The notes beneath the pieces are model-generated. The model did not search any database and had not been told where the DNA came from. It saw only the letters and a program-made list of their open reading frames with translations. A program made the translations under genes and the position numbers. Source: Nocardioides ginsengisegetis (lineage in GTDB: Bacteria > Actinomycetota > Actinomycetes > Propionibacteriales > Nocardioidaceae). From it: a stretch of 15,840 nt of DNA. Positions within the stretch are counted from its first letter, which is position 1, and the number at the start of each line of letters is the position of its first letter. Positions 2,441 to 15,840 of the stretch are shown here, in pieces. The DNA lies in the NCBI RefSeq assembly GCF_014138045.1, contig NZ_JACGXA010000002.1, positions 1 to 15,840 on the forward strand, read 5' to 3'.

Positions 2441-2454
2441 ACTCTGGGACCTAG

Positions 2455-2497: not shown

Positions 2498-2517
2498 TGG
2501 CATTGGGGGCGGGACGG

Positions 2518-2936: not shown

Positions 2937-3010
2937 CGCCCGCGTGTCGCGACGTTTCCGCAGGCAGATGGCATATTTCTGGTCCGTCGCCCCTTTTTTC
3001 CACTCGATGC

Positions 3011-3039: not shown

Positions 3040-3046
3040 CCCCAAT

Positions 3047-5590: not shown

Positions 5591-5895
5591 GCGCCGACAA
5601 CTGGGGCGTCTGCCCGCAGTGCAAGGTGTCCCGCGAGCGCGACATCGCCAACACCGAGCGGGCAGTCGCCGAGACCTACGGGAAGGTGTCGGTCGAGAAG
5701 TTCGATGACGCGCGAGCCCGCCTAGAGGCAAAGCGGGCCGAGCCCATCCAGTACACGCTTCGCGAGGACTACGAGATGGGCCTCGATGAAGATGGCGAGT
5801 TCTACGTCATCTACTCCGGCGGGTGCCGCGAGTGCGGACTGACCCACAAGTTCAAGCACTCCGAGCAGGTCGACCTCACCGGCGGTGCCGCATGA
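5587..5895 (+). CDS. Zinc-ribbon-like phage protein (102 aa)
   Basis: Starts MSADNWGVCPQCK, a beginning I recognise from actinophage early proteins of unknown function. Two CxxC knuckles, CPQC (residues 9-12) and CREC (about 80-83), are separated by a long charged helical hairpin (ERDIANTERAVAETYGKV through ARARLEAKRAEP), so one zinc site is probably built from both ends of the chain. An acidic strand region (EDYEMGLDEDGEFYVIYSGG) precedes the second knuckle. It might bind nucleic acid or protein; no catalytic motif is visible. ATGA overlaps on both sides. Confidence 0.7.
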   Translation: MSADNWGVCPQCKVSRERDIANTERAVAETYGKVSVEKFDDARARLEAKRAEPIQYTLREDYEMGLDEDGEFYVIYSGGCRECGLTHKFKHSEQVDLTGGAA

Positions 5896-6068
5896 AGCGC
5901 CGGACCTACCGACTCCCCGAGAGCCAGCTGCGTCACCTCGTGGGCGTCTCCGCACTCCACGACGGCGACTGTGTCCGCTGCCCCGACCCGATCCTCGTCA
6001 ACCAGCGGGTGGTTCCGCAGGGCGACGGGTGGATCCACGCGTCCTGCGCGTCGGGAGCGGACGAATGA
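5892..6068 (+). CDS. 58-aa hypothetical Cys-containing protein
   Basis: A small basic protein starting MKRRTYRLPESQLRHLVGV. Cys residues in CVRCPDPI and HASC, with nearby His residues, suggest one zinc site (C-x2-C plus W-I-H-x2-C), typical of the many tiny zinc proteins in this array. The DGWIHASC ending resembles phage proteins whose Cys/His pairs sit after a GW dipeptide. No known function. It is held in place by ATGA overlaps with both neighbours. Confidence 0.62.
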   Translation: MKRRTYRLPESQLRHLVGVSALHDGDCVRCPDPILVNQRVVPQGDGWIHASCASGADE

Positions 6069-6556
6069 GCCGCGAGTGGAAGCCGGGCGACGTGGCGATA
6101 GTGACGAACCAGTCCGGCGAGAGTGGCCGCGCGATCCGCTTCTCTGGTTCGCCAGAGGATGGCTGGTTCGCCGAGCGCGACGGCATCGGCGGCGACCTTA
6201 CGGACGCCCGCCCCCTCGTCGTCATCGACCCCGAGAACCGCGAACAGGTCGAACGGCTGTGCAACTTGGTTGACGGCGCTTTCAACGACACCCGCATCGA
6301 TGGGACCGGGCCGACCAGTACGGAACTTGCGCAGGCCGCCCTTCGCGAGTTCGCCAACCCGACCCCGCCGAAGCCCGAGGAACCGACCGGACTCGGCGCC
6401 GTGGTCGTGGACGAGAAGGGTCGCCTCTGGGTAAACCTCACCGACCCGAAGTGCAGCACCCACACCGATCCGTGGGTCAGCGTCCACGACCCCGACCGAT
6501 GGGCCTCCTACGCGGACATCGCCGCCGTCAAGGTGCTCTCTGGTGGTGTCGCATGA
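6065..6556 (+). CDS. Hypothetical actinophage protein (163 aa)
   Basis: Function unknown. The N-terminal part (MSREWKPGDVAIVTN, about residues 1-45) reads like a small beta-barrel. A linker with helices follows (ENREQVERLCNLVDGAF and STELAQAALREFANP), then a Pro-rich hinge (PTPPKPEEP). The C-terminal region (about 120-163) has GLGAVVVDEKGRLWVNL, PWV and WASYADIAAVKVLSGGV, a pattern that recurs at the ends of actinophage early proteins, sometimes on different N-terminal parts, which points to a mobile module. No catalytic residues are evident. It overlaps its neighbours by ATGA. Confidence 0.68.
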   Translation: MSREWKPGDVAIVTNQSGESGRAIRFSGSPEDGWFAERDGIGGDLTDARPLVVIDPENREQVERLCNLVDGAFNDTRIDGTGPTSTELAQAALREFANPTPPKPEEPTGLGAVVVDEKGRLWVNLTDPKCSTHTDPWVSVHDPDRWASYADIAAVKVLSGGVA

Positions 6557-6825
6557 GCCCCGACACCTACGCCGCCCTGTTCCTGATCGCCGTCGCCGTC
6601 GGGTTCGCGCTCCCCTCGCTGCTCATCCGCGCCCTCGTCTACATCGAGGCCCGCGACAACCGCTGGCAGGCCGAGTCCGACGCCGACTTCGCAGAGCGCC
6701 GAGTCGACGAATGGTTCGCCGCTGTCGACCAGGCCGTCGCCATCACCTGCGCCGAACCCATCTACGCCGAACTCGCCGTCAAGCGGTTGCGCGCCGAGCT
6801 GGACGCGTGGGGTGAGACCGCATGA
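6553..6825 (+). CDS. Small membrane-anchored protein (90 aa)
   Basis: The first 30 residues contain one strong hydrophobic helix (YAALFLIAVAVGFALPSLLI, about residues 6-25), followed by a charged helical region rich in Arg, Glu and Ala (EARDNRWQAESDADFAERRVDEWF and onward to the end). This suggests a single-pass inner-membrane protein with a cytoplasmic coiled region. It has no lipobox or signal-peptidase site. The role is unknown; holin is unlikely because it sits among early genes and has only one helix. It overlaps both neighbours by four bases. Confidence 0.65.
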   Translation: MSPDTYAALFLIAVAVGFALPSLLIRALVYIEARDNRWQAESDADFAERRVDEWFAAVDQAVAITCAEPIYAELAVKRLRAELDAWGETA

Positions 6826-7052
6826 CCGCTCAAAGCGACGCCCACCTCAACGGAGACTGCTGGCCCTCTCAATGCCAGATCTGTCAGGCCGAGGAAGACG
6901 CCCGCGAACCACTCAGCGGCGTCTATGGCGCCTGCGCCGGCTGCGGGGCAATCGAAGCCAACCTCGTCAAGCCAACCGGCGCCCGCGACCTGTCCGCGAT
7001 CGGCGAACACCACGCCTACCCCACCGGCTACGGATGCGAGTTCTGCGCGTGA
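6822..7052 (+). CDS. Cys-rich zinc-binding protein (76 aa)
   Basis: A small protein with three Cys pairs: CQIC (about residues 18-21), CAGC (about 38-41) and CEFC near the end (72-75), plus an isolated Cys13 and His residues in GEHHAYPTGYGC. This should bind one or two zinc ions in a treble-clef or ribbon arrangement. No family named. It stands in a run of small Cys proteins next to the recombination genes, so a nucleic-acid or protein adaptor role is possible. ATG 6822 and the GTG of the next gene overlap neighbouring stops. Confidence 0.65.
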   Translation: MTAQSDAHLNGDCWPSQCQICQAEEDAREPLSGVYGACAGCGAIEANLVKPTGARDLSAIGEHHAYPTGYGCEFCA

Positions 7053-7207
7053 ACACCTACGACGACCACGACGACCTCGCTTGCCCAATGTGCTGCCGCG
7101 AGGCATGCCAGACCTGCGCCGCCCCTTGCGAACACACCGACCCCCTGTGCGTCAGGTGCTGCCGGCTCTACCACCAGAACGAACCGATCCGAGAGGACGT
7201 CGCATGA
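7049..7207 (+). CDS. Very Cys-rich mini-protein (52 aa, nine Cys)
   Basis: The GTG start at 7049 overlaps the previous stop, and the stop overlaps the ATG of the exonuclease gene. Of 52 residues, nine are Cys, arranged CPMCC, CQTCAAPC and CVRCC, with His at several positions. Two zinc sites are likely. The acidic start (NTYDDHDDL) and helical end (HQNEPIREDVA) flank the metal core. I do not recognise a family. Direct coupling to the YqaJ-type exonuclease gives it a possible accessory role, but this is only position. Confidence 0.62.
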   Translation: MNTYDDHDDLACPMCCREACQTCAAPCEHTDPLCVRCCRLYHQNEPIREDVA

Positions 7208-7881
7208 CGCTGCACATCCTGGACGTTGAGCAGGGAACGCCTCCGTGGCATGACGCTCGCCGAGGAATCGTGACCGCCTCGACCGTCGGCAAGCTACTGA
7301 CCCCCACGCTCAAGGTCGCATCCAACGACGTGTCCCGAGGCATCACCGCAACCCTCGTCGCCGAACGCATCACCGGCCACACCGAGGAAACCGGCATGAG
7401 CCCCGACATGTGGCGAGGTGTCGAGTCCGAGCCGATCGCCCGCGACCTCTACTCCGGCCACTACCAGCAGGCCGTCGAGGTCGGGTTCATGCGCCGCGAC
7501 GAAGACGACTGGACGCTCGGATACTCGCCCGATGGCCTCGTGGCTGACGACGGGCTGATCGAGATCAAGTCGCCCCGCCAGAAGACCCACCTGAACACGA
7601 TTCTGGCGAACGAGGTCCCGACGCACTACATGCCGCAGTTGCAGGCCGGGCTACTCGTCTCCGGCCGCAAGTGGATCGACTTTGTGTCCTACTGCGGCGG
7701 CCTCCCCCTCTGGGTCAAACGCGTCACACCCGACCCCGCCTGGTTCGACGCCATCACCGCAGCCTGCCAGCAGTTCGAGAAGGCCGCCGCCGAAATGGGC
7801 GCGGCCTACACCCAAGCAATCGTCGGCCTCCCCACCACGGAGCGGGTCGACTTCAACCGAGTGGAGTTGAAGCTCGCATGA
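7204..7881 (+). CDS. YqaJ / lambda-exonuclease-type recombination nuclease
   Basis: A 225-aa nuclease of the PD-(D/E)XK superfamily, expected to degrade the 5' strand of double-stranded ends so that a single-strand annealing protein can recombine phage DNA. The N-terminal QGTPPWHDARRGIVTAS matches YqaJ-type proteins. GVESEPIAR includes Glu76, which aligns with lambda Exo Glu85. The catalytic core SPDGLV-x5-IEIKSPR gives Asp110, Glu120 and Lys122. The later HYMPQLQAGLLVSGRKW is the family's conserved Q-x-Q helix, and WIDFVSYC follows. Length is normal for the family. It is chained by ATGA overlaps, and the gene two places on (8141-8680) is the likely partner protein. No RecB helicase parts are present. 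Confidence 0.9.
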   Translation: MTLHILDVEQGTPPWHDARRGIVTASTVGKLLTPTLKVASNDVSRGITATLVAERITGHTEETGMSPDMWRGVESEPIARDLYSGHYQQAVEVGFMRRDEDDWTLGYSPDGLVADDGLIEIKSPRQKTHLNTILANEVPTHYMPQLQAGLLVSGRKWIDFVSYCGGLPLWVKRVTPDPAWFDAITAACQQFEKAAAEMGAAYTQAIVGLPTTERVDFNRVELKLA

Positions 7882-8141
7882 AGCACGTCGAAGACCGTTC
7901 GGCCATCCGACCGAGGCCGCATCACTACATGAACGCGGACGGCACCTGTCACGCGGGCGACCTCATGGAGCACGGGACGCCGTTCGTCGCGCTCTACGAC
8001 GCCGAGGAACTGTGTCGCATCGTCAACGCGGAGAAGGCGGAGGCGTGGGACGAGGGCAAGTGGGCGTGCTACAGCGCCGAGCGCGAATCCCGCGACGGCT
8101 CGGCCCTCATCAACCCCTACGCCAGACACCTGGAGCACTGA
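7878..8141 (+). CDS. Hypothetical protein (87 aa) between exonuclease and its likely partner
   Basis: Unknown function. The polar start MKHVEDRSAIRPRPHHYMNAD leads into an acidic helical segment. The second half has AWDEGKWACYSAERESRDGSALINPYARH. The AWDEG...NPY arrangement also appears in the product of 12182-12745 (AWDEGVAHCEEIAG...NPYR), so the two share a short actinophage motif. The sequence has scattered Cys and His residues but no CxxC pair. Start overlaps the exonuclease stop (ATGA); its TGA overlaps the next ATG by one base (TGATG). Confidence 0.66.
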   Translation: MKHVEDRSAIRPRPHHYMNADGTCHAGDLMEHGTPFVALYDAEELCRIVNAEKAEAWDEGKWACYSAERESRDGSALINPYARHLEH

Positions 8142-8680
8142 TGCGCGTCACCATCGAAAAGAAGACCGACCAGCTCAACTATGAAGACTTCCTGGGCGGC
8201 GTGACGCGAATCGTCACCATCGCAGGAGTCAAGGCCGGCACCAAGGAGCAGCAGTACGACATCGCCATCGAAGGCGACACGCGCTTCTGGCGACCAGCCG
8301 TCACGGTCCTCAAGCAACTGGTCGACGCGTGGGGCGACGATGCTACCGAGTGGGTTGGACGCCGCGCCGAACTGTACGGCGACCCGGAGGTCTCGTTCGG
8401 CCGCGACAAGGTCGGCGGAATCAGGGTCTCTCGGCTCTCCCACATCGACGGCCCGAGGACCGCGAACCTGACGATCACCAGGGGCAAGCGCGGCAACTTC
8501 ACCGTGACACCGCTGCCTGACACGCCCACCGCACCCCCCGAGCCCACCGCCGAAGAGGTCGCCGCCTGCACCGACGTCGACCAGTTGAAGGCGATGTGGC
8601 GCAACTCCAGCCCCGAGCGTCGCCAGCAGATCGAGCAGAGGGTGGCCGACCTCAACGACGAGCCGACGGGTGACGCCTAA
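8141..8680 (+). CDS. Probable recombination/ssDNA-associated protein (179 aa), unnamed family
   Basis: Residues 1-120 form the conserved part: MRVTIEKKTDQLNYEDFLGG, FWRPAVTVLKQLVDAWGDDATEWVGRRAELYGDPEV and GGIRVSRLSHIDGPRT. It looks strand-rich and may be an OB-like fold. A Pro-rich linker (TPTAPPEPTAEE) joins a helical tail with CTDVDQLKAMWRNSSPERRQQIEQRV, a motif that also follows linkers in other phage recombination proteins. I associate this family with actinophage genes next to RecE/YqaJ or Cas4-type nucleases, where a RecT-like annealing protein is otherwise absent. A single-strand binding or annealing role is inferred from position only. ATG 8141 overlaps the previous stop by one base. 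Confidence 0.68.
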   Translation: MRVTIEKKTDQLNYEDFLGGVTRIVTIAGVKAGTKEQQYDIAIEGDTRFWRPAVTVLKQLVDAWGDDATEWVGRRAELYGDPEVSFGRDKVGGIRVSRLSHIDGPRTANLTITRGKRGNFTVTPLPDTPTAPPEPTAEEVAACTDVDQLKAMWRNSSPERRQQIEQRVADLNDEPTGDA

Positions 8681-8775
8681 TGCGCGCCCTGGTCGCGGTC
8701 GCTGCCGTGTGGCCGCTGCTCGTCGAGGTGAAGGCGTTCAGGACGGCGCTGGTGGTTGCGGGGTGGGGCGGGTGA
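8680..8775 (+). CDS. Possible 31-aa micro-protein
   Basis: ATG at 8680 overlaps the previous TAA (TAATG), and its TGA overlaps the next GTG (GTGA at 8772), so it fits the chain exactly. The product begins MRALVAVAAVWPLLVEVKAF and ends VVAGWGG, mildly hydrophobic with a possible short membrane helix. The fit of both ends is the only support; it may be a translational bridge to the HNH gene. Confidence 0.45.
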   Translation: MRALVAVAAVWPLLVEVKAFRTALVVAGWGG

Positions 8776-9260
8776 AGACCTGCTCAACGGAAGGCTGTGC
8801 GCAGCCATCGATGGCTAGGGGCCTTTGTCGGCTCCACTACGAACGGGCGACTAGGGGCTATGTCCCGCGCACTCCGGCCAGCCCACTAGATAGCTGGTTT
8901 GAGAAGACCAAAGGTTGCTGGATCTGGAAGGGCCACATCACTAGGTATGGCTACGGCCAGCTCCGCGGCAAGAAGGCACACCGCTTGGTCTATGAAGCAA
9001 TGGTCGGGCCAATCCCCGAGGGATTGGTGATCGACCACCTATGTCGCAATCGGGCGTGTGTCAATCCAGAACACATGGAGCCCGTCACCAATGAGGAGAA
9101 TCTCGACCGCGGAGCTCGCAGCCCCAGTAAGACGACTTGCCCGGTGGGGCACTCATACACGCCCGAAAACACCTACGTCTACAACGGCGCCCGCCAATGC
9201 CGGACGTGCAGGCGTGAAGCGGCGCGGCGGTATCGGGCGCGGATCGCGGAGGCGAGCTAG
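8772..9260 (+). CDS. HNH homing-type endonuclease
   Basis: A 162-aa HNH endonuclease. It starts with a small zinc motif (CSTEGCAQPSMARGLCRLHY, residues 4-23), then WIWKGHITRYGYGQL and AHRLVYEAMVGPIPEG, the HNH core VIDHLCRNRACVNPEHME with the metal-site His in IDHLC and the final Asn/His in NPEH, and a C-terminal Cys cluster (CPVGH, CRTCRREAARRYRAR). This domain order is usual for actinophage HNH proteins, many of which act as free-standing homing enzymes. Its codons are visibly less GC-biased than those of its neighbours (CTA, AGG, ACT, TTT, AAA, GAT, GGT are frequent), which suggests recent transfer. The GTG 8772 start overlaps the previous stop. It separates two nuclease genes of the recombination block. 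Confidence 0.9.
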   Translation: MKTCSTEGCAQPSMARGLCRLHYERATRGYVPRTPASPLDSWFEKTKGCWIWKGHITRYGYGQLRGKKAHRLVYEAMVGPIPEGLVIDHLCRNRACVNPEHMEPVTNEENLDRGARSPSKTTCPVGHSYTPENTYVYNGARQCRTCRREAARRYRARIAEAS

Positions 9261-9610
9261 TGACTCGCAACCGCGCCACCGCCAAGAAGGCCGGCACCGC
9301 ATGGGAGACGGCGATCGTCGGCGCGCTCGTCGCCTACGGATGGCCCCACGCTGAACGCCGACGCCTAGCGGGAGCCGCCGACAAGGGTGACATAGCCGGC
9401 ATCCCCGGCGTCGTCATCGAAGCGAAGAACACCAAGGGGTATGCGCTCGCCGAAGCTGTCGACGAAGCCAACCATGAGGCCGTCAACGCCTCCGCACCCA
9501 TCGGTGTCGCCTGGTTGAAGCGCAAGGGCAAGACCGACCCGCTCGCCGGCTACGTCGTCATGGACGGCGCGACCTTCCTGCGGCTGCTCGGAGAGGCGGG
9601 CTACCAGTGA
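9260..9610 (+). CDS. PD-(D/E)XK nuclease, Holliday-junction-resolvase-like
   Basis: A 116-aa protein with the compact restriction-endonuclease-like core seen in archaeal Hjc and phage junction resolvases. Candidate catalytic residues are Glu16 (GTAWETAIV), Asp44 (DKGDIAGIPG), Glu54 and Lys56 (VIEAKN), in the correct order for a PD-(D/E)XK site. The rest (LAEAVDEANHEAVNASAPIGVAWLKRKG) completes the alpha-beta fold. It would cut branched DNA during recombination or packaging; a VRR-NUC or other phage nuclease identity is possible. GTG at 9260 overlaps the HNH stop by one base (TAGTG), and its own stop overlaps the next GTG. Codon use returns to the GC-rich pattern here. Confidence 0.8.
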   Translation: MTRNRATAKKAGTAWETAIVGALVAYGWPHAERRRLAGAADKGDIAGIPGVVIEAKNTKGYALAEAVDEANHEAVNASAPIGVAWLKRKGKTDPLAGYVVMDGATFLRLLGEAGYQ

Positions 9611-9843
9611 CCATCGCCGCCAACCTCGCCACCCTGGCCGCCGACCTCAACGGCTGGACCAACGCCATCGACAAGGCCAGACGCGCCTACGCCCAGCACC
9701 TCAACGAGCTCGAAGCCCACACGATCTGCCGCGACTGCGACCGACCAGCCACCAGCCAAGGCCGCTGCGACCCACACCGCCGCCGCTACTGGTCCGAATG
9801 CAGCCAGCGCGCCCGCGACAAGAAGAAGGAGACCACGGCATGA
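9607..9843 (+). CDS. Small zinc-motif protein (78 aa)
   Basis: Helical N-terminal half (MTIAANLATLAADLNGWTNAIDKARRAYAQHLNELEAH) followed by a zinc-type motif: CRDCDRPATSQGRCDPH, that is C-x2-C and a later C-x2-H, then a basic tail (RRRYWSECSQRARDKKKE). This C-x2-C...GxC-x2-H pattern is common in small actinophage proteins and could contact nucleic acid; it resembles the N-terminal motif of HNH proteins without the nuclease core. The function is unknown. Overlaps of four bases on both sides place it firmly in the operon. Confidence 0.66.
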   Translation: MTIAANLATLAADLNGWTNAIDKARRAYAQHLNELEAHTICRDCDRPATSQGRCDPHRRRYWSECSQRARDKKKETTA

Positions 9844-10196
9844 CCCGCCACTGGGACCGCGACGAATCCCCATCCACTCTCACCCACGGCGAATGGCGAC
9901 TCGACCCGAAGACCCGCGTGCTCGTGTGGGTTGACGCACCGCCCGTCAAGGAAGACCCGATCGCCTGCTACGTCTGTTTTGCCACCATCTACCAGTCTTG
10001 CCGGACCATCGGCGGCAGTCGCACCAAGGACCACGCCGGACGCGCACCCCGTCTGTGCCGTTGTGGACGCGAGCCGTCCTACCGCGCTTCCTACTGCGAC
10101 ACCTGCCGACCAGAGGAGCACCGGGCACGCGCTCGAGCGAGCAAGCGACGTGTGGCTGACCGCAGGTGGGCCGAGTCTCAGCGGGAGGCGGCGTGA
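9840..10196 (+). CDS. Cys-rich basic protein (118 aa)
   Basis: The N-terminal 40 residues (MTRHWDRDESPSTLTHGEWR...) are a Trp-containing region of unknown fold. Cys motifs follow: CYVC, then an isolated Cys, CRCGREPSYRASYCDTCR, then a strongly basic helix (EEHRARARASKRRVADRRWAESQ). Two zinc sites and a nucleic-acid-binding tail are plausible. The segment LCRCGREPSYRASYCDTCRPEE is similar in style to phage proteins near HNH and replication genes. No enzyme motif is visible. ATG 9840 overlaps the previous stop; the end overlaps the next GTG. Confidence 0.66.
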   Translation: MTRHWDRDESPSTLTHGEWRLDPKTRVLVWVDAPPVKEDPIACYVCFATIYQSCRTIGGSRTKDHAGRAPRLCRCGREPSYRASYCDTCRPEEHRARARASKRRVADRRWAESQREAA

Positions 10197-10414
10197 GCGG
10201 GCAGTTCGAGGACGACGGCGACAAGATCCGCGAGCTGCTGGCCGCGCTCACCGCCGAGCGTTACCGCTCTCCCTGGTGGCGCACACCCGCCGACCACCAC
10301 CCCGCGAGCGCACCCGACGCGCTCACCGACTGGGACGACTCAGAAGCGACCTGCGCGCGACGTCGGCGGGCGATGGCAGCGGACTTCGAGCAGGAGAAGA
10401 GGGCTGCGTCGTGA
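10193..10414 (+). CDS. Hypothetical protein (73 aa)
   Basis: Polar protein starting MSGQFEDDGDKIRELLAALT, then RYRSPWWRTPADHHPASAPDALTDWDD and a basic helical end (ATCARRRRAMAADFEQEKRAAS). The WDDSEATCARRRRAMAADFE segment looks like a helical hairpin. I recognise no domain, membrane segment or zinc pair. The GTG start overlaps the preceding TGA; the end overlaps GTG 10411. Its place is shortly before the replication initiator. Confidence 0.6.
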   Translation: MSGQFEDDGDKIRELLAALTAERYRSPWWRTPADHHPASAPDALTDWDDSEATCARRRRAMAADFEQEKRAAS

Positions 10415-10566
10415 TGGGCCGACACGCGCACCCCACCCCCCACTGTCCACTGGGGATTCCGCCTGTGCTATGGGAAAATGGGGCCACAGATGAAGACGGC
10501 CCGGACGCGGAGTTGGTACCTCCGGCCGGGCCTACCGATCAGCACCAAAGGAGAGTGATCGGCTGA
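10411..10566 (+). CDS. 51-aa hypothetical protein
   Basis: GTG at 10411 overlaps the previous stop (GTGA); an ATG directly after it (10414) is an equal alternative start. The product (MMGRHAHPTPHCPLGIPPVL...) is rich in His and Pro, then acidic, and looks unstructured. Its last codons carry AAAGGAGAG, a clear Shine-Dalgarno for the next gene at 10566, so part of its reading frame may be constrained by that role. The TGA overlaps the following ATG by one base. Gene status is moderate. Confidence 0.5.
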   Translation: MMGRHAHPTPHCPLGIPPVLWENGATDEDGPDAELVPPAGPTDQHQRRVIG

Positions 10567-10703
10567 TGGCTATCTTGCCACCACCAACCCCCGGCGCGCA
10601 CGACGACGTACCTCCTTGCCCCAACTGTGGCGAGGACATCACCAGCGACTTGCACCACGACTGGTGCATCGCGCCCCTGGATCAGATCGAGGGGTGGGTC
10701 TAG
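10566..10703 (+). CDS. 45-aa zinc-knuckle protein upstream of the replication initiator
   Basis: Starts at ATG 10566 with a good Shine-Dalgarno (AAAGGAGAG) about 10 bases upstream. The product MAILPPPTPGAHDDVPPCPN continues with CGEDITSDLHHDWC, giving CPNC plus HH and Cys, enough for a single zinc site, and ends IEGWV. Unknown function. The TAG overlaps the GTG of the replication initiator (TAGTG), so it is tightly coupled to it and may aid it. Confidence 0.6.
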   Translation: MAILPPPTPGAHDDVPPCPNCGEDITSDLHHDWCIAPLDQIEGWV

Positions 10704-11566
10704 TGCCGCGCATCCGCACCATCAAGCCCGACGCGTTCCTGAGCGAATCCCTGTCGTCCGTGCCCCGTGGCACCCGCTGGACATTCGCCGGCCTCTGGAC
10801 CTACGCCGACGACAAGGGCCGAGCTCGCGACGACGCCCGACTCATCAAGGCCGCGCTCTACCCCCTCGACGACGACGTGACCCTGGCCGACGTCGCCCAC
10901 GACCTCGACCTGCTGGCCGCAATCAGCGGGATCTGCCGCTACGTCGTCGAGAACCGCAACTACCTGCACATGCCGAAGTGGCACCACCAGAAGATCAACC
11001 GCCCCACCCCCGCCAAGAGCCCCCCGTGCCCGATCCATGAGGGCGGCGGGAGCGGTCACGTACTCCCCACTGACAACTCAGTGATTAATCACGGAGGAAT
11101 CACTGAGCCCTCAACGTGGGAAAGGAAGGGAAGGGAAGGGGAAATGGAAGGGGAAGGGAACGGAGAGTCCGCGACTGACGTCGCCGACGCGCCGAAGTCA
11201 CTCGCTCTCGTGAACGACCAACGACCCGACGTTGATGGCATCTGCGAACACCTCGCCGGAGCCATCGAGGCCAACGGCAGCAAGCGACCAACCATCACCA
11301 CCAGGTGGCGTTCTGCCGCCCGCCTCATGCTCGACAAGGACGGACGCAGCGCCGACGAGATCCACGGCGCGATCGAGTGGTGCCAGCGCGACGAGTTCTG
11401 GCGGGCCAACATCCTCAGCCTGCCGACCCTCCGCGAGAAGTACGACACCCTCCGGCTCCAAGCGCAGCGCAAGAGCGCCGCCACCCCGCGACAGGCCGCC
11501 GAAGCCGAGATGTGGGAGCGCGCCTACGCCCGCGCTGAGGCTCGCGAGATCGGGGCCGAGCGATGA
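10703..11566 (+). CDS. Replication initiator / replisome organiser-like protein
   Basis: A 287-aa protein of a type widespread in actinophage replication modules. The N-terminal winged-helix-like domain (about residues 1-105) begins PRIRTIKPDAFLSESLSSV and includes TFAGLWTYADDKGRARDDARLIKAALYPLDD and YLHMPKWHHQKINRP. A low-complexity linker follows (about 106-170, rich in Gly, Glu, Ser). The C-terminal helical domain (about 171-255) ends EFWRANILSLPTLREKYDTL, resembling DnaD/phage O-type C-termini that contact the helicase or its loader. It likely binds the origin and recruits replication proteins. The linker-coding DNA holds iteron-like repeats and a polypurine tract, described separately. 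GTG 10703 overlaps the previous stop; the end overlaps ATG 11563. Confidence 0.8.
   Translation: MPRIRTIKPDAFLSESLSSVPRGTRWTFAGLWTYADDKGRARDDARLIKAALYPLDDDVTLADVAHDLDLLAAISGICRYVVENRNYLHMPKWHHQKINRPTPAKSPPCPIHEGGGSGHVLPTDNSVINHGGITEPSTWERKGREGEMEGEGNGESATDVADAPKSLALVNDQRPDVDGICEHLAGAIEANGSKRPTITTRWRSAARLMLDKDGRSADEIHGAIEWCQRDEFWRANILSLPTLREKYDTLRLQAQRKSAATPRQAAEAEMWERAYARAEAREIGAER
11068..11167. other. Candidate replication origin: iteron-like repeats plus polypurine tract
   Basis: Within the initiator's linker-coding DNA, the decamer AATCACTGAG occurs at 11098-11107, as its reverse complement CTCAGTGATT at 11077-11086, and with one change (AATCACGGAG) at 11087-11096. A partial copy CACTGA is at 11068-11073. 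The two direct copies are 11 bp apart, about one helical turn. Right after them, 11118-11167 is almost pure purine on the plus strand (only T11145 and C11161 are pyrimidines). This layout resembles the lambda origin inside gene O. Binding by the initiator is inferred. Confidence 0.6.
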
Positions 11567-11973
11567 ACCCCCGCGAGGCCGTCGACCTGGCGCGCTACAT
11601 GCGGGCGCACTTCCCCCAGCAGCCGATCGACGAGTTCACCGCCGATGCGCTTGCTGAGACGTTGCGCGAGTACCCAGCCACTGACTGCCGCAAGGCGGTG
11701 CTGAACCTCGCCGAGCGTGGCGAGCATTGGTGCGCACCAACAGCCGTCAAGGCTGAGGTGAAGCGCATCCGCAACAAGCGGGTCGCAGACTATGGCCCGA
11801 TTGAGCCGCCCGCAGGACTCGACCCTGATGACGTGCGCGGCTACCAGCGTTGGCTCGGCGCGATGCACAAGGAGATCGCGGACGGCACCCTCACCGCGCC
11901 GCCCGAGATTGAGGGCATGGTGCGCGACGTTCGCGAGCTCGGCCACATCGGTCAGGACGTGCCCGATGCCTGA
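11563..11973 (+). CDS. Possible helicase-loader-like protein (136 aa)
   Basis: A soluble helical protein starting MNPREAVDLARYMRAHFPQQ, then IDEFTADALAETLREYPATDCRKAVLNLAERGEHW. This first part is similar in pattern to the G39P-type helicase loader/inhibitor fold (helical, YP/FP dipeptides, alternating helices with a Trp). The second half has a basic segment (VKAEVKRIRNKRVADYGP) and a helical end (VRGYQRWLGAMHKEIADG). Its position directly after the replication initiator, overlapping by ATGA, supports a replication role such as loading the host or phage helicase. No ATPase motif is present, so it is not DnaC-like. Assignment is tentative; I rely on pattern and place. Confidence 0.6.
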   Translation: MNPREAVDLARYMRAHFPQQPIDEFTADALAETLREYPATDCRKAVLNLAERGEHWCAPTAVKAEVKRIRNKRVADYGPIEPPAGLDPDDVRGYQRWLGAMHKEIADGTLTAPPEIEGMVRDVRELGHIGQDVPDA

Positions 11974-12109
11974 CGCCAAGCGCACCAAGCGCAGCCGCGA
12001 GGAGTACGAGGACCTGATCGCGAAGGCCATGCGCGTCGGGGACATGGGTTGGGTCGAGTTCCTGACCACCCGCTTCGACCGCGACTACCCGGCAGGAGGC
12101 GACCAGTGA
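11966..12109 (+). CDS. 47-aa hypothetical protein
   Basis: ATG at 11966 lies 8 bases inside the previous gene, and the stop overlaps the next GTG. The product begins MPDAKRTKRSREEYEDLIAK and continues AMRVGDMGWVEFLTTRFDRDYP, a charged, probably two-helix peptide with a basic start. No motif recognised. It ends the block directly following the replication genes. Confidence 0.58.
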   Translation: MPDAKRTKRSREEYEDLIAKAMRVGDMGWVEFLTTRFDRDYPAGGDQ

Positions 12110-12189
12110 CCCGCCACCCCACCACCGCGCCCGACCTTGAGACCACATCCGCTAGCACCGACCACACCGAGGAGCACGCGCATGGCTGA
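12106..12189 (+). CDS. Possible 27-aa micro-ORF
   Basis: GTG 12106 overlaps the previous TGA (GTGA) after an AGGAGG Shine-Dalgarno (12095-12100), and the end overlaps the next ATG by 8 bases (ATGGCTGA). The peptide MTRHPTTAPDLETTSASTDH... is Thr-rich and looks unstructured. It could be a true micro-protein or a coupling device; its own upstream AGGAGG favours translation. Confidence 0.42.
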   Translation: MTRHPTTAPDLETTSASTDHTEEHAHG

Positions 12190-12745
12190 GACGCCGCAGA
12201 ACGTCGACATTGAGCCGTTGACCGACGCCGAGTGGAACGCGATCTGCCGCGCCGCAGGAGAGCACTCGGACGACGCCTGCGATGCGCTGAAGGTGGCCGT
12301 CGAGCGCATCATCGCCGAGCGAGAGCGGGTCGCCGCTGAGATTGCCTGGGATGAGGGTGTCGCCCACTGCGAGGAGATTGCGGGCGTCGGCTACAACCAG
12401 CCCGGAGCAAGCTACGAGGGCGGGGACTCCAACCCTTACCGCGCCGCACCTGCCCCGCCCCAACCGGACCCGAGGAGGCCGACCGTGGCTGACGACCGCT
12501 GCCTGAACTGCAACCAGACCCTCCGGGTCATCAACTACGTACTCGGCGAGCGGCTGATGCATGTGGACCGCGATGCCTCGTTCCCGAGCGCGCAGAAGGG
12601 GACGGCGTGGCGACACTGCCGACAGCGAGTCGCCACCCTCCCGCCGACGCCTATTGATGGCCTCACAGACCCGTGCCCGACGCCGGAGTACGAGCCCGAG
12701 CGGCGCATAAGCCCCGACACGAACGAGGAGGCCGACCGTGGCTGA
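12182..12745 (+). CDS. 187-aa hypothetical protein, probably two genes fused in one frame
   Basis: The frame runs without stop from ATG 12182. Residues 1-95 (MAETPQNVDIEPLTDAEWNA to SNPYRAAP) are an acidic helical region with AWDEGVAHCEEIAG and NPYR, similar to the actinophage motif in the 7878-8141 product. Residues 102-187 begin VADDRCLNCNQTLRVINYVLGERLMHVD and read as a separate small zinc-type protein ending PERRISPDTNEEADRG. At the junction the DNA carries the Shine-Dalgarno/GTGGCTGA cassette that elsewhere joins two separate genes. So this is either one fused protein or a two-gene locus whose first stop was lost through a one-base indel near the C-rich run at 12453-12461. Function unknown. 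Confidence 0.65.
   Translation: MAETPQNVDIEPLTDAEWNAICRAAGEHSDDACDALKVAVERIIAERERVAAEIAWDEGVAHCEEIAGVGYNQPGASYEGGDSNPYRAAPAPPQPDPRRPTVADDRCLNCNQTLRVINYVLGERLMHVDRDASFPSAQKGTAWRHCRQRVATLPPTPIDGLTDPCPTPEYEPERRISPDTNEEADRG
12463..12492 (+). repeat. Repeat B copy 1: Shine-Dalgarno plus start cassette
   Basis: ACCGGACCCGAGGAGG followed by a C/G-rich spacer and GTGGCTGA. It matches the copy at 12951-12980 at 29 of 30 positions. Partial copies lie at 12724-12745 and 13320-13342. Here the cassette is inside an open frame and does not overlap a stop codon of the upstream gene in its present frame. Confidence 0.8.
12485..12745 (+). CDS. Internal-start product (86 aa), zinc-type protein with ERRISP tail
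   Basis: In-frame GTG at 12485 is preceded by GAGGAGG six bases upstream, a better initiation site than most genes here possess. It would yield an 86-aa protein starting MADDRCLNCNQTLRVINYVL, with a C-x2-C pair, His residues and a later Cys (WRHCRQR), followed by a Pro-rich linker and the ERRISP tail. Its start and the next gene's start at 12738 lie in near-identical DNA cassettes. Whether it is made in addition to, or instead of, the 187-aa form cannot be decided from sequence. Confidence 0.55.
   Translation: MADDRCLNCNQTLRVINYVLGERLMHVDRDASFPSAQKGTAWRHCRQRVATLPPTPIDGLTDPCPTPEYEPERRISPDTNEEADRG
12696..12716 (+). repeat. Repeat A copy 1 (ERRISP-coding, 21 bp)
   Basis: First of three identical 21-bp copies; the core GAGCGGCGCATAAGCCCCG is read in frame as ERRISP. 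It lies 30 bases before the stop of its gene and just upstream of the next gene's Shine-Dalgarno cassette. Confidence 0.85.
12724..12745 (+). repeat. Repeat B copy 2 (partial start cassette)
   Basis: CGAGGAGGCCGACCGTGGCTGA is shared with copy 1 without change, so the initiation signal and the 8-base start/stop overlap (GTGGCTGA) are conserved, while the ACCGGACC part is not. It provides the start of the gene at 12738. Confidence 0.75.
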
Positions 12746-12980
12746 GTCCGTGCTCATCGGCTCGACATGGAGGCGCAACCCTCCAGGGCGTGAAGTCGTT
12801 CGGATTGAACGCGTGTGGATGTACTCCGCCCTCGGCGACTCGGCAGAACTGACCGTGCGAGCACATCCAGTCACGGGAGGTAGGCCGCTCGTTGCGCCCG
12901 TCGAGTGGCTCCGCAAGCACTACACCGAGCGGCGCATAAGCCCCGCCCCGACCGGACCCGAGGAGGGCGACCGTGGCTGA
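12738..12980 (+). CDS. Hypothetical protein with ERRISP tail (80 aa)
   Basis: GTG at 12738 follows GAGGAGG with a six-base spacer and overlaps the previous stop by eight bases. The product is probably a small beta-barrel: MAESVLIGSTWRRNPPGREV, then VVRIERVWMYSALGDSAELTVRA and VAPVEWLRKHY, an SH3/Tudor-like order of strands often seen in phage proteins that start GSxWR and end in F/Y-L..Y. The C-terminus TERRISPAPTGPEEGDRG is the repeated tail. Function unknown. No Cys or membrane segment. It could be a small interaction module. Confidence 0.65.
   Translation: MAESVLIGSTWRRNPPGREVVRIERVWMYSALGDSAELTVRAHPVTGGRPLVAPVEWLRKHYTERRISPAPTGPEEGDRG
12925..12945 (+). repeat. Repeat A copy 2 (ERRISP-coding, 21 bp)
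   Basis: Identical to copies 1 and 3 over 21 bp, in the same reading phase relative to its gene, and again directly upstream of a Shine-Dalgarno/start cassette. Identity at synonymous positions shows it is conserved or duplicated as DNA, not only as protein. Confidence 0.85.
12951..12980 (+). repeat. Repeat B copy 3: Shine-Dalgarno plus start cassette
   Basis: Matches copy 1 at 29 of 30 positions. It encodes the tail TGPEEGDRG of the upstream gene and carries the GAGGAGG Shine-Dalgarno and GTG start of the next gene, with stop and start overlapping in GTGGCTGA. Confidence 0.85.
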
Positions 12981-13164
12981 GCGAGGCCGAGGGTCCCGCC
13001 GAAGCGACGGCCACTGTCCGGCGTGCGGCGCTGAGTGCAGCGCGCCGCCTGCCAGCACCGACGCCCACCGCATGTGGGCCCAGCGCCACGCCGACGCGAC
13101 CGGCCACACCGCGTGTGTCATCACCGAATCCGTCCGCACCTACGAGCCGAGGAGCACCACGTGA
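12973..13164 (+). CDS. Small Cys/His protein (63 aa)
   Basis: GTG at 12973 is set by the Shine-Dalgarno cassette and overlaps the previous stop by eight bases. After a basic start (MAERGRGSRRSDGH) comes CPACGAEC, then HRMWAQRHADATGHTACVITE, giving a CxxC pair with several His residues and a later Cys: a probable zinc-finger-like fold. The pattern CPxCG...W...H...TGH is known from small phage proteins with C2H2-like fingers. Its end overlaps the next GTG (13161). Confidence 0.66.
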   Translation: MAERGRGSRRSDGHCPACGAECSAPPASTDAHRMWAQRHADATGHTACVITESVRTYEPRSTT

Positions 13165-13343
13165 GCACCCGAGTCGCCTGCCAGTCCTGCCCCATCACGT
13201 TGCCCGTCGAGCAGTTCGTGGACCTCGTGTCAGGCGGGTGGGACATGACGCACACGTTCCAGCGCCCCGAGTTCAACGACGGCAAGGTCGTCGTCTGCCG
13301 AGGCAGGTTCGCCGCCCCGACCGGACCCGAGGGGGGCCGATGA
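13161..13343 (+). CDS. 60-aa hypothetical protein
   Basis: GTG 13161 overlaps the previous stop (GTGA). The product starts MSTRVACQSCPITLPVEQFV with one CxxC pair, then a beta-like region (GGWDMTHTFQRPEFNDGKVVVCRGRF), and ends APTGPEGGR, a relic of the repeated tail. Three Cys could hold one zinc with a His. No family recognised. The DNA for the last residues carries repeat B copy 4, which supplies the ribosome site of the next gene. Confidence 0.62.
   Translation: MSTRVACQSCPITLPVEQFVDLVSGGWDMTHTFQRPEFNDGKVVVCRGRFAAPTGPEGGR
13320..13342 (+). repeat. Repeat B copy 4 (diverged start cassette)
   Basis: ACCGGACCCGAGG is kept, followed by GGGGCCGATGA instead of AGGCCGACCGTGGCTGA. It codes the TGPEGGR tail and overlaps the stop/start ATGA of the next gene, so both the purine-rich initiation signal and the gene-joining role are preserved while the details differ. 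Confidence 0.7.
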
Positions 13344-13591
13344 GCGGCGACGAGCCTGAGATCCTGCTGCGCACGAGCGACTACGTGCTGGACATCGAGT
13401 TCCGTTGTACAGACGAGGACCACCCTGCTGACGGGCCGACTTGGTCCCCGTACCGCCACCTCGACCCAACCACGCCGACCAACAAGGCGCTCGAGGCCGT
13501 CGAGAGACTGAACGCCGACGGTGCTGCGGAGTGCATGGAGTTCCGCCTGACCGGCACTCGCATCGACTCCGTGAAGGAGTTGCTGACATGA
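13340..13591 (+). CDS. Hypothetical protein (83 aa)
   Basis: Acidic protein starting MSGDEPEILLRTSDYVLDIE, continuing FRCTDEDHPADGPTWSPYRHLDP and a helical second half with ALEAVERLNADGAAECMEFRLTGTRIDSVKELL. The order beta-strands, then helix, then strand and helix suggests a compact alpha/beta fold, but I recognise no family. The ATG overlaps the previous stop, and the end overlaps the next ATG (13588). No membrane or zinc motif. Confidence 0.64.
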   Translation: MSGDEPEILLRTSDYVLDIEFRCTDEDHPADGPTWSPYRHLDPTTPTNKALEAVERLNADGAAECMEFRLTGTRIDSVKELLT

Positions 13592-14238
13592 GCCCATCAG
13601 TCAGCGCCGCCGACGGCCAGGAGGCCGAGCGCCTCGGCAATTCGACGAAGCCGAACCCGGACCAGCCCGCCCGCTGCCCGTCGATCGACCCGCACGACAC
13701 ACTCCAGTGCGCCCGGCGCATCCACGAGGACGACCAGTGCGTCTTCGGCGGCATCGGCTGGAAGAAGGGCGAGCGGCCTCAGCGCGACGTCCCAGCATTC
13801 CTCTACCACTGGTCGCCAGCCAGGAATCGGATCAGCATCGAGCGCGAAGGCCTACGCCCCGGATCTCCGTCGAACACCTTCCCCGAGTGGTCCCCGCCCC
13901 ACATCTGTTACGGGGAGACGCCGGCCTCCGCGCTCGGCCTGACGCTGCTGCCCGACGAGCTCGACCTGTGGATGGTCCGGACCGACAGCCACAGGTTCAC
14001 CCTGGCCAACGAGGGTGCGGAGTGGCGCAGCGCCGACCAGATCGAGGCGTGGTGGGTCGGCGGTCGACCTCCTCGTGACCCAGTCATCGACATGACCCCG
14101 GCCGAGCAGGCCGAGGCCGACGAGATCGTGGCCTACCTCCACGAGCAGGAGATTGCCGAGCGGCGCATAAGCCCCGAAACGCACCCAACCCCCACCACCA
14201 CCGAGACCGGCACCACGACAGGAGCAGCAGATGAGTGA
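13588..14238 (+). CDS. ADP-ribosyltransferase/RES-like fold protein candidate (216 aa)
   Basis: The first 65 residues are low-complexity and include CPSIDPHDTLQCARRIHEDDQC, a Cys/His region seen as a small tag in other actinophage proteins. The core (about residues 70-155) starts FLYHWSPARNRISIEREGLRPGS, then ICYGETPASALGLTL and DELDLWMVRTDSHRF. YHxSPxxxxxxIxxxGLxPG is the opening of RES, KptA-like and other ADP-ribosyltransferase-fold domains. The exact catalytic Glu is not clear, so activity is uncertain. A helical stretch (TPAEQAEADEIVAYLHEQEI) and an ERRISP tail with a Thr-rich end follow. ATG 13588 overlaps the previous stop. It might modify a host protein or nucleic acid, or be a binding-only relative. 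Confidence 0.6.
   Translation: MSPSVSAADGQEAERLGNSTKPNPDQPARCPSIDPHDTLQCARRIHEDDQCVFGGIGWKKGERPQRDVPAFLYHWSPARNRISIEREGLRPGSPSNTFPEWSPPHICYGETPASALGLTLLPDELDLWMVRTDSHRFTLANEGAEWRSADQIEAWWVGGRPPRDPVIDMTPAEQAEADEIVAYLHEQEIAERRISPETHPTPTTTETGTTTGAADE
14156..14176 (+). repeat. Repeat A copy 3 (ERRISP-coding, 21 bp)
   Basis: Identical to the copies at 12696 and 12925 although it is 1.2 kb away in an unrelated gene. Again it is near the 3' end of its gene and in the same phase, but here no repeat B cassette follows; a Thr-rich tail intervenes. Confidence 0.85.
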
Positions 14239-14479
14239 GCGCGAGGACGACCTCAGGACGCTGGGCATCGAGCACGCCTTCGAACGCCTTGACCCCGACG
14301 GCTATGGCTGGGCAGCGGGCGACGGTCCTAGTGCCGAGGAGGTCGTGGGGGCGCTCATCGCGGCCGGCTGGCGACCTCCCGCCCACCGCGGATCGCACGA
14401 CTTCGACAACCACGGACCAACCGACAACCTCGACTGCCCCGGATGCGTGGCCCCCGAGACTCCTGGAGACCAGCCGTGA
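14231..14479 (+). CDS. Hypothetical protein (82 aa)
   Basis: ATG 14231 overlaps the previous stop by eight bases, after a weak GGAG. The acidic protein starts MSEREDDLRTLGIEHAFERL and continues with helical AEEVVGALIAAGWRPP, a phrase common in actinophage proteins (a helix followed by GWRPP). The end has HDFDNHGPTDNLDCPGCVAP with one CxxC pair and several His, a possible zinc site. Function unknown. Its stop overlaps GTG 14476. Confidence 0.63.
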   Translation: MSEREDDLRTLGIEHAFERLDPDGYGWAAGDGPSAEEVVGALIAAGWRPPAHRGSHDFDNHGPTDNLDCPGCVAPETPGDQP

Positions 14480-14865
14480 GCACCGTGAGCATCAACGAGA
14501 CGTGCCGCTGTGGGGCGACGTTCAGGGCGAGCGGAGACACGTTTGCCGTCAGCAGACGCCAGGGGTCATTCGATGAGCAGCACGCCGGATGTCGCCAGAT
14601 CGAGCCCGGCATGTGCGGCAACCCGAGCCCCGTGCTGGTCAAGCTCGGCACGCCGACGGCGGACTACTGCCAGTTGCGCACGAGTGCGCCTCCCGTGTCG
14701 TCCACGTCCAGGGAGCGCCGACGAGCCCGCGACCGGACCCGACACCCACCGCGCCCGACTCACAGCCCCACACGGCCACCAACGATTCCGCGTCGCCTGG
14801 CCCGGAGCAACCGCCGACGACTGGATCGACTACGCAGACGAAGAGAGGGCCGTCGCGATGGCTGA
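14476..14865 (+). CDS. Zinc-type protein with suspect out-of-frame C-terminus
   Basis: GTG 14476 overlaps the previous stop. The first 60-70 residues look genuine: MSTVSINETCRCGATFRASG, then FDEQHAGC and a Cys-containing CGNPSPVLVKLG segment, a CxCGA...H-A-GC zinc pattern of a known actinophage style. From about residue 75 the translation becomes an Arg/Pro-rich run (RERRRARDRTRHPPRPTHSP...) whose codons lack GC-rich third positions; it is the shadow of the gene in the next frame. So the protein probably used to end earlier, or a frameshift joins it to the downstream frame. The stop at 14865 is the formal end only. Confidence 0.55.
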   Translation: MSTVSINETCRCGATFRASGDTFAVSRRQGSFDEQHAGCRQIEPGMCGNPSPVLVKLGTPTADYCQLRTSAPPVSSTSRERRRARDRTRHPPRPTHSPTRPPTIPRRLARSNRRRLDRLRRRREGRRDG

Positions 14866-14938
14866 CGTTCTTGTGAAGACCAAGGGAGCGGTCGTCGTGT
14901 ACGCCGTCAACATCATTGAAGACCAGGAGGCGGCGTGA
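14684..14938 (+). CDS. Conserved-style hypothetical protein (84 aa), start uncertain
   Basis: The C-terminal 50 residues are clearly coding: FRVAWPGATADDWIDYADEE, then AVAMADVLVKTKGAVVVYAVNII, an alpha/beta pattern I associate with actinophage hypothetical proteins. Its reading frame is one base ahead of the upstream gene, with which it overlaps for about 180 bases. No good Shine-Dalgarno marks the start. GTG 14684 is the earliest plausible one; a later start or a frameshift from the upstream gene is equally possible. Function unknown. Its stop overlaps GTG 14935, and an AGGAGG Shine-Dalgarno (14926-14931) lies within its last codons for the next gene. Confidence 0.6.
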   Translation: MRLPCRPRPGSADEPATGPDTHRARLTAPHGHQRFRVAWPGATADDWIDYADEERAVAMADVLVKTKGAVVVYAVNIIEDQEAA

Positions 14939-15738
14939 ACAGCGAGTGCAAGTGCGGACGACCAACCCGAGACGCCGCCTACGTGTGCGACACCTGCGGG
15001 GACGAACTCGCCCGCGCCCTCGGTGACGTGACCTGGTTGGCCGAGGAGCTCGAAACCACCATCACGCGCCAGAGAGGCGTCGACTACCGCGGCGTCGGAG
15101 GCAGTAGTGGCGGCAAGAAGCCCTCAGAACGCCCCTCTCCCGTCCAATGGGGCGCCAGTGAGGCTCGGGGAGACCTCAGAGCCCTGCTCGTCTCATGGGC
15201 GCTGTTCTGTGAGGCTGAGGGGGTCAGGAACTCCTCGCCCTACCCCGGGCTGCCCGACGACGACCTCCCCGCCCTGTCCGGCTGGCTACTCTGGCGGGTC
15301 GACGGGCTGACCCTCAACGAGATCGGCTCCGATGCCGTCGAGGAGATCACCTCGGCCGTCGCCCACTGTCGTCGCGTCATCGACGTGGCCCCCGACAAGT
15401 GGTACGCCGGCCCCTGCAACCAGGAGACCGAAGGCGTCGAATGTGGTGCCGACCTGTACGCCCTCTCCGCAAAGGGCAACGTCTCCTGCGGCGTGTGCTC
15501 GGCAAGCTACGACGTGGCCGAGCGTCGGAAGTGGCTCCTTGAGGCCGCTGAGGACAGGCTAGCCGATGCCGCCACCCTCGCCCGGTCAGTGTCCTGGCTC
15601 GGCGCACTACCCCTCAACGCAGCACGCATCCGCAAGTGGGCCGAGCGCGGCCGGATTGTCGCCAAGGGACACCACGGGCAGAAGCCGCTGTATCGCATCG
15701 GGGACGCCATCGACCTGCTCGCCAAGGAGGCATCGTGA
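14935..15738 (+). CDS. Zinc-ribbon and helix-turn-helix DNA-binding protein (267 aa)
   Basis: Probable DNA-binding early regulator of a type common in actinophages. The N-terminal ribbon is CKCGRPT...CDTC (residues 5-21). A helical domain follows (LGDVTWLAEELETTITRQRG through WALFCEAEGVRN and GWLLWRVDGLTLNEIGSDA). A second zinc ribbon lies at about 161-191 (CNQETEGVEC-x13-SCGVC, then SYDVAERRKWLLEAAEDRL). The C-terminal MerR/excise-like winged helix runs from LGALPLNAARIRKWAERGRI to PLYRIGDAIDLL. GTG 14935 has an AGGAGG Shine-Dalgarno three bases upstream and overlaps the previous stop. It may control the following transcription unit, whose putative promoter begins 45 bases beyond its stop. 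Confidence 0.8.
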   Translation: MNSECKCGRPTRDAAYVCDTCGDELARALGDVTWLAEELETTITRQRGVDYRGVGGSSGGKKPSERPSPVQWGASEARGDLRALLVSWALFCEAEGVRNSSPYPGLPDDDLPALSGWLLWRVDGLTLNEIGSDAVEEITSAVAHCRRVIDVAPDKWYAGPCNQETEGVECGADLYALSAKGNVSCGVCSASYDVAERRKWLLEAAEDRLADAATLARSVSWLGALPLNAARIRKWAERGRIVAKGHHGQKPLYRIGDAIDLLAKEAS

Positions 15739-15770
15739 GCCTCGCGCGCGGGATTGTCCCCGACACGTAA
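15735..15770 (+). CDS. Possible 11-aa coupled leader ORF
   Basis: GTG at 15735 overlaps the stop of the HTH gene (GTGA) and gives MSLARGIVPDT before TAA. The overlap is exactly of the type used throughout the array, but the product is too short for a fold. It may be a leader peptide, a remnant or chance. Confidence 0.25.
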   Translation: MSLARGIVPDT

Positions 15771-15840
15771 CAAAGATCAAGAGTTGACTTGCGCCAATGG
15801 TTGTGCATGTGTCACACTCGGGTTGGGCGATACGCCCCCA
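15771..15840 (+). promoter_or_regulatory. Right-edge intergenic region with candidate promoter
   Basis: The chain of overlapping genes ends at 15738 or 15770. TTGACT at 15784-15789, the same -35 hexamer as the early promoter, is followed 17 bases later by ATGTGT, a weak -10. A TGTG...CACA dyad lies at the presumptive -10 (about 15801-15817), suitable for an operator. The next gene is outside the window, so it cannot be confirmed. Confidence 0.4.

Follow-up and report, generated by a model that had tools for sequence, protein, structure and literature searches.

The replication origin of phage lambda contains imperfect inverted repeats of 19 bp as well as a region rich in AT, as outlined in part of PMC7466680. 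Portions of PMC5703833 describe the pSK41-type RepA_N initiators of plasmids as having boxes inside the rep gene, a linker encoded by the origin, and DnaD-like domains. For mycobacteriophage RepA proteins such as that of Miko, which possess an N-terminal helix-turn-helix (HTH), sections of PMC7157519 consider the origin to lie likely just upstream of repA or, as in lambda O, within it, and state that no repeated motifs were identified in the regions examined there. Here we describe an origin-like element in a 15,840-nucleotide stretch of Nocardioides ginsengisegetis DNA (contig NZ_JACGXA010000002.1, positions 1 to 15,840; hereafter, the window). In this element, an array of 11-bp iterons runs into a purine tract inside the gene of a replication initiator. 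With a probability of about 0.88, judged from sequence comparison, we consider the element to be a prophage replication origin within the linker-coding part of the initiator gene. The features of the locus are as follows.

10703..11566, + strand: replication initiator gene, GTG start, 287 amino acids (phrog_2149 'replication initiation protein', E = 1.8e-48, residues 2-269 of 287)
10703..10990, + strand: N-terminal winged-helix-like DNA-binding domain (N-domain), residues ~1-96, in an AlphaFold2 model
10985..11005, + strand: motif HQKINRP, residues 95-101, with Asn at residue 99, the proposed specificity residue
11048..11212, + strand: DNA coding for a predicted-disordered linker, residues 116-170, which holds the array (predicted local distance difference test score (pLDDT) below 50 at residues 116-119 and 122-170)
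11056..11117, + strand: array of six head-to-tail 11-bp iterons, core TCASKGA; units 1, 2, and 6 are imperfect
11056..11062, + strand: iteron core 1, TCACGTA, imperfect
11067..11073, + strand: iteron core 2, CCACTGA, one mismatch
11078..11084, + strand: iteron core 3, TCAGTGA
11089..11095, + strand: iteron core 4, TCACGGA
11100..11106, + strand: iteron core 5, TCACTGA
11111..11117, + strand: iteron core 6, TCAACGT, degenerate
11118..11167, + strand: coding-strand purine tract, 48 of 50 bases A or G, with one G-quadruplex-type motif
11222..11560, + strand: C-terminal helical domain (C-domain), residues 174-286, helices in the AlphaFold2 model

The layout is shared with lambda gene O, where iterons followed by a tract also lie within the coding sequence, between the DNA-binding and C-terminal domains. 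Sixty C-terminal residues are homologous between the two proteins (residues 202-261 of the window initiator; BLASTP E = 2e-9, 19/60 identical; hhalign 95.5%), and the annotated lambda iterons are found at a comparable place. No similarity between the N-domains of lambda O and the window initiator was found by BLASTP or hhalign. In the annotation, the lambda iterons measure 18 bp and begin at intervals of 20, 24, and 23 bp, whereas the window iterons are 11-bp units with a 7-bp core. An earlier note on this DNA, made from the letters alone, had called the locus lambda-like; this holds for the layout and the C-terminal domain, but not for the iterons or for an AT-rich tract (the window tract is 42% AT). 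As far as the cited portions go, the pSK41-type initiators resemble the window gene in that the origin is central in rep and encodes the linker, and also in their boxes within rep and their DnaD-like domains. The window protein is different in that it matches no Pfam family, RepA_N included, at E ≤ 0.1. The Miko-type RepA, by its description in the cited sections, is likewise the initiator of an actinophage and has an N-terminal HTH. The phrog_2149 proteins of Streptomyces phage Austintatious, Gordonia phage Gsput1, and Mycobacterium phage Butters, called replication initiation, RepA-like, or replisome organizer proteins, belong to the same family as the window protein. Gsput1 carries a TCASKGA array and Butters a TCGCGA array, both at 11 bp, and the feature tables of the three phages list genes only, with no origin marked. 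Among the matches listed in searches of the open-access literature, we recognised no description of this array. An origin placed inside an initiator gene is a known arrangement; the difference here lies in the iterons, which are 11 bp long and helically phased, have switchable near-palindromic cores, and were found with one N-domain family.

In the window, the six cores start at intervals of exactly 11 bp, and core 6 is followed without a gap by the purine tract, from 11118 on. The array is located in the predicted-disordered linker between the winged-helix domain and the lambda-O-homologous C-terminal domain. Three abutting decamers in mixed orientation, with the direct pair 11 bp apart, and a partial copy CACTGA had been noticed before. 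The decamers CTCAGTGATT (11077-11086), AATCACGGAG (11087-11096), and AATCACTGAG (11098-11107) are indeed present with the starts of the direct pair 11 bp apart, and CACTGA is located at 11068-11073. The first two decamers are contiguous, but one base separates AATCACGGAG from AATCACTGAG. The decamer in mixed orientation is not the repeating unit; the true unit is the 11-bp head-to-tail repeat with the near-palindromic core TCASKGA. The inverted copy was seen because TCASTGA nearly equals its own reverse complement. Since 11 bp is not a multiple of the codon length, the reading frame shifts from one unit to the next: the recurrent peptide LTEDS-LSxHGx-LTEDS is one DNA unit in three copies, each in another frame.

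The array was compared with 400 synonymous-codon shuffles, in which codons are permuted among positions of the same amino acid so that both the protein and the codon usage are kept. Its score of 33/35 was never reached (shuffle mean 24.9, p = 0.002). In the 4.46-Mb genome, this locus (on two overlapping contigs) is the only one with three TCASKGA cores spaced by 11 bp, the reversed control pattern has 0 occurrences, and a four-unit pattern was found in none of 295 other genomes of the class searched. The GC-rich window and the repetitive tract might favor an artefact of chance or composition, but the codon shuffles, the genome-wide uniqueness, and the 0/295 result for the four-unit pattern make this explanation practically negligible. 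No Rfam families were found here. The GC skew over 10001-12250 is slightly negative throughout (-0.158 to -0.003) with no switch at the array, and is uninformative as evidence on an origin.

In the AlphaFold2 model, the N-domain has helices at residues 22-34, 45-52, and 61-73 and strands at 78-82 and 85-89, with mean pLDDT of 93-98 for residues 21-90 and 78 for residues 91-100. Profile matches relate it to the phrog_1408 and phrog_16167 initiators. The C-domain is related to DnaD-like helicase loaders and matches phrog_391 and phrog_2514. No solved relatives were found by sequence at E ≤ 1, and the winged-helix matches that Foldseek gave against the PDB were weak, all with E above 0.001. The N-domain family pairs with several different C-domains.

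Comparison of the linker DNA of homologous initiators, which the earlier note had proposed, was carried out with a protein-first sample of 34 non-redundant relatives with the N-domain. The element is conserved at the DNA level in most of them, and an array (score ≥26/35), either at codon-shuffle p ≤ 0.01 or past the stop codon, was found in 26. Among periods 7-16, period 11 is the sole best in 27/34 relatives, although two of these (L066 and L067, handles of individual loci) belong there weakly, with a low score. Spacings between core pairs peak at 11, 22, and 33, and the cores inside the open reading frames (ORFs) of the 34 relatives are distributed over the frames as 48/44/44. A core-free test gave lag 11 or 22 in 28.3/47, with ties split. 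The unit derived from 65 non-redundant array loci is (C)TCA[C/G][T/G]GA, in which T, C, and A each carry 1.7-1.8 bits. When units with ≥5/7 matches are counted, a locus has a median of 4, and 5/65 loci have none. The array loci span actinobacterial, enterobacterial, Vibrio, and Pedobacter sources.

The position of the array relative to the protein is variable. The best-scoring stretch is within the N-domain-coding part in seven relatives (L002, L005, L009, L010, L014, L016, and L077). In three relatives (L020, L026, and L073), the stop codon of the initiator ORF follows the N-domain, and the array and purine tract continue beyond it; these three arrays each beat 400 dinucleotide shuffles (p = 0.002). 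In L021, whose protein is identical to that of L020, the array falls at the beginning of a DUF1643-encoding ORF, and in L073 and L038 (the protein of the latter is identical to that of L026) another ORF, without a family match, is open across the array. These observations bear on the possibility that the linker peptide TEDSxSxHGxLTEDS...KGREGKG is selected at the protein level and the DNA repeats are its by-product. Close relatives have a recognisable form of this peptide, and unrelated proteins also have repetitive low-complexity linkers. The repeat, however, is frame-shifting at 11 bp and exceeds codon shuffles, the array continues past stop codons and into the DUF1643 ORF and varies in its protein position, and the linker is predicted to be disordered. 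We therefore regard a protein-level origin of the repeats as very unlikely. The computations show the array, as far as sequences can tell, to be a DNA-level element and not a protein-level one. The earlier suggestion that the odd amino-acid composition of the linker results from a DNA function is supported.

The array goes with the N-domain, because none of 13 relatives sharing the C-domain only reaches 95% of an array of any type (TCASKGA or one of the two variant cores given below), compared with 16/34 N-type relatives at the same strict threshold. This association was also examined from the DNA side. A protein-blind scan of IMG/VR for three TCASKGA cores at 11 bp gave 24 + 46 stretches, 59 distinct, and in 52/59 of these loci the N-domain is encoded on the same strand with its matched end within ~180 bp of the array. 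A reversed-pattern control gave 17 stretches (one of which is L102, and 12 are copies of one sequence), with the N-domain in 0/16 new ones. A scan at period 10 gave 0 stretches, versus 46 at period 11, and a scan at period 12 gave 4, of which 2 have the N-domain; in these two, L170 and L171, a period-12 TCASTGA array lies beside the same N-domain family. Variant cores at period 11 are TCGCGA in Butters, Redi, and ODay, and ACGCGT in Vibrio phage 1.131.O. Predictive scans with these cores found the N-domain adjoining in the same sense in 105/120 TCGCGA and 105/120 ACGCGT loci among the matches listed. The DNA-first loci (59, at least 120, and at least 120) are counted without de-duplication; L093, L098, L108, and L113, for example, are one type.

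In the remaining seven TCASKGA loci, L094, L101, L102, L103, L107, L109, and L145, no N-domain initiator was found within the stretch covered. These stretches carry TCACTGA-type arrays with 11-bp spacing, with ~16 units in L102 and two arrays on opposite strands in L145. They may be satellites, or replicons of another kind that rely on these iterons.

Thirteen named phages were taken as an independent sample, in which core types that are not exact were judged by eye. PSonyx, Butters, Redi, and 1.131.O have at least three exact cores 11 bp apart, and Kp4865-4, ODay, and VvAW1 have two (ACGCGT in VvAW1). SOVA965 (L174) has a lag-11 repeat of a different core, with ATCACCGAACG units by eye. Two array blocks ~170-200 bp apart were observed in several loci (L143, L149, Butters (L176), Redi (L179), and, e.g., L189, L190, and L193). 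In Butters and Redi the blocks are ~180 bp apart in a single gene, and in L149, Butters, and Redi one block is in the N-domain part and the other in the linker. Loci with two blocks may have a bipartite origin.

The core type is closely associated with residues 99 and 100 in the motif HQxI(99)(100)P, which separate the core classes among 213 non-redundant N-domains. The TCASKGA proteins have NR in 47/49 (Asn99 in 47/47), the other two, L111 and L125, having cut-off N-domains. The TCGCGA proteins have Asp99 in 72/74 and Asn99 in 0/74, and the ACGCGT proteins have Asn99 in 58/58, with N or P at residue 100 in 54. The window motif HQKINRP has NR, matching its TCASKGA core type. This comparison omits 41/327 N-domain loci lacking a core type at 95% match, or 32/213 after redundancy filtering, including 11 with NR and 11 with D at 99. 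L111 and L125, whose N-domains are cut off in the locus and whose translations read HQVINR and HQRINR, were omitted from the tree and pair tests. Some seed peptides of the protein-first sample include HQKINRPT, which holds residue 99, together with one linker peptide, and lean to NR. The DNA-first rows alone gave NR in 35/37 TCASKGA (the rest being L111 and L125), D in 72/74 TCGCGA, and N in 57/57 ACGCGT proteins.

Position 99 distinguishes TCASKGA from TCGCGA with a balanced accuracy of 1.000, as measured without cross-validation on the data that chose the position; the next best position has 0.843. All 14 closest cross-type pairs (50-68% identical) differ at 99, and likewise at 65, compared with 0/28 same-type pairs differing at 99, the control pairs being somewhat closer (mean identity 0.64 and 0.72, versus 0.50-0.68). 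A quick tree built without residues 95 onward gave at least 14 switches between TCASKGA and TCGCGA. It would be chemically sensible for Asn to read A in TCA and for Asp to read C opposite G in TCG. We think it likely that these loci represent a cross-phylum class of phage origins, in which helically phased 11-bp near-palindromic iterons and a purine tract form a DNA module that dictates the protein it overlaps and that is placed in the wing, in the linker, or behind the stop codon of the gene for a winged-helix initiator. In this class, the half-site would be read mainly by one residue (TCA by Asn99, TCG by Asp99, and ACG with Asn-Asn or Asn-Pro), and origin and reader would have switched together repeatedly.

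The purine tract following the repeats, previously described as about 50 bases of almost pure purine, is 50 nt with two pyrimidines (11118-11167). It is the longest purine-rich run in the window, the longest pyrimidine run under this rule being 20 nt, and its length was never reached in 400 synonymous-codon shuffles (mean 27.1, p = 0.002). When the run is defined as the longest with at most 3 pyrimidines after the array, the median over the 65 non-redundant array loci is 38 nt, and 53/65 have at least 25 nt. In random 140-nt windows from the same loci, the run averaged 14.7, and its 99th percentile was 29. The median gap between array and tract is 4 nt over the 65 loci, and the tract length is independent of the GC content of the locus (range 0.36-0.74; r = -0.10). 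Two further candidates for general features were rejected: a G-quadruplex motif is present within 140 nt after the array in only 23/65 loci, and a conserved hairpin after the tract, considered as a third element, has z < -2 in 11/54, with a mean of -0.95.

Near-palindromic phased sites also function as operators and centromeres. Accordingly, the N-domain might bind the array for autorepression or for partition or pairing of the replicon, and not for starting replication; in addition, the N-domains of plasmid initiators tie with metalloregulator folds in the VIA list. The array, however, is in the middle of the gene or behind it, and neither promoter nor terminator consensus sites were found in 10900-11400, where promoters were sought by a simple sigma-70 consensus scan. 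The purine run of at least 25 nt in 53/65 loci and the lambda-O/DnaD-like C-domain of the protein also argue against a role as an operator or centromere-like site, which we consider improbable.

The earlier proposal that the repeats and the tract are the phage origin is thus supported as far as a DNA-level origin-like element is concerned, because of the frame-shifting 11-bp period, the persistence past stop codons, the association with the N-domain and not with the C-domain, and the covariation with residue 99; origin activity itself we infer. In the proposed mechanism, initiator molecules would bind each core via the winged helix, possibly as two protomers per core, as suggested by the near-palindrome. 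Since the iteron spacing equals one helical turn, the bound initiators would all be on one face of the helix. The resulting nucleoprotein bundle may strain and open the adjoining purine tract, and the lambda-O/DnaD-like C-domain would then deliver the replicative helicase to the exposed strand.

Several observations weigh against the origin reading or parts of it. The TCASKGA array is absent from eight of the 34 relatives (L003, L015, L027, L066, L067, L081, L084, and L085), and five of the 13 named phages (Hum25, Mx8, Shamal, Tyrion, and NL) show neither a lag-11 repeat nor any pair of the three cores at a distance of 11 bp. Homologues having the DNA-binding domain but no repeats, which the earlier note had named as counter-evidence, therefore exist, but as a minority only, and the layout is therefore common, not universal. 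L086, a C-domain-only relative, reaches 0.83 of the TCGCGA array. Regarding the residue-99 relation, the supported branches contain five independent switches, of which four are with residue 99 and none opposing (p = 0.125), too few to be significant on their own, and residue 99 is in a less certain part of the model (mean pLDDT 78). Residue 100 was rejected as an independent determinant: ACGCGT and TCASKGA were switched only once, so that it is confounded with ancestry.

The tract also presents difficulties. At 42% AT, the window tract has too little AT for an AT-rich melting region. The tract is shorter than 25 nt in 12/65 array loci, and it reaches at least 25 nt in only about half of the variant-core loci (54/105 and 51/105, among the matches listed). 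Purine tracts are also present in C-domain relatives with other N-domains (L012 and L089), without these arrays, and the tract may therefore serve something unconnected to the iterons. The array would then be the binding site, the tract an independent RNA or DNA structure (G-quadruplex, triplex, or translation control), and the origin would melt elsewhere, which is compatible with our reading of the array itself. The G-quadruplex-type motif in the window tract and in 23/65 loci also favors this explanation, but the short median gap between array and tract and the lack of dependence of tract length on GC speak against it. We consider an independent tract rather doubtful, though less so than the other alternatives.

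Other repeats were seen in the linkers of some relatives. L084 and L085 (Gordonia phages ClubL and OneUp) have TTGCAAGTTACAACC-like units 30 bp apart, and L066 has GCGCAGACGAGTC-like repeats by eye, whereas L015 shows no repeat by eye. The repeats of L084, L085, L066, and L174 are suggested to be further origin types.

The window is contig C2 of the 4.46-Mb genome and overlaps contigs C1 and C4 at 100%; C4 and C6 overlap at 99.97%, and C6 and C5 at 100%. Because these contigs overlap near-identically, the region of C1, C2, C4, C5, and C6 looks like one prophage split over overlapping contigs. This tiling at 99.97-100% identity possibly reflects extra copies or an assembly artefact. The initiator gene is single-copy; an apparent second copy on C4 was ruled out, being accounted for by the contig overlap. 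The window encodes a serine integrase (333-1742), a RecE/YqaJ-type exonuclease, an HNH nuclease, and a RusA-like resolvase, and C6 encodes a terminase, a portal, and a major head protein. A perfect 34-bp palindrome is present at 2399-2432, 3' of the integrase gene. Dispersed short direct repeats (12441-12492, 12696-12746, and 12929-12980), 82-88% alike, occur amid small ORFs, and an ERRISP peptide recurs in the ORFs neighbouring them.

To our knowledge, the origins of most phages are unmapped. If our reading is true, the origin would be readable from the sequence in many phages. The protein of locus L124 matches 405 of 50,697 phage records, by the N-domain among the 60 matches listed, and not every record with the N-domain has an array. 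The DNA specificity of an initiator would, if the residue-99 relation is true, be predictable from one residue. Since origin and initiator would be one stretch of DNA, both would move and change specificity together. The locus would also illustrate clearly how a DNA element can dictate the amino-acid sequence of a protein in each of the three frames, and the arrays found without an initiator may offer a route to satellites or plasmids that borrow a phage origin.
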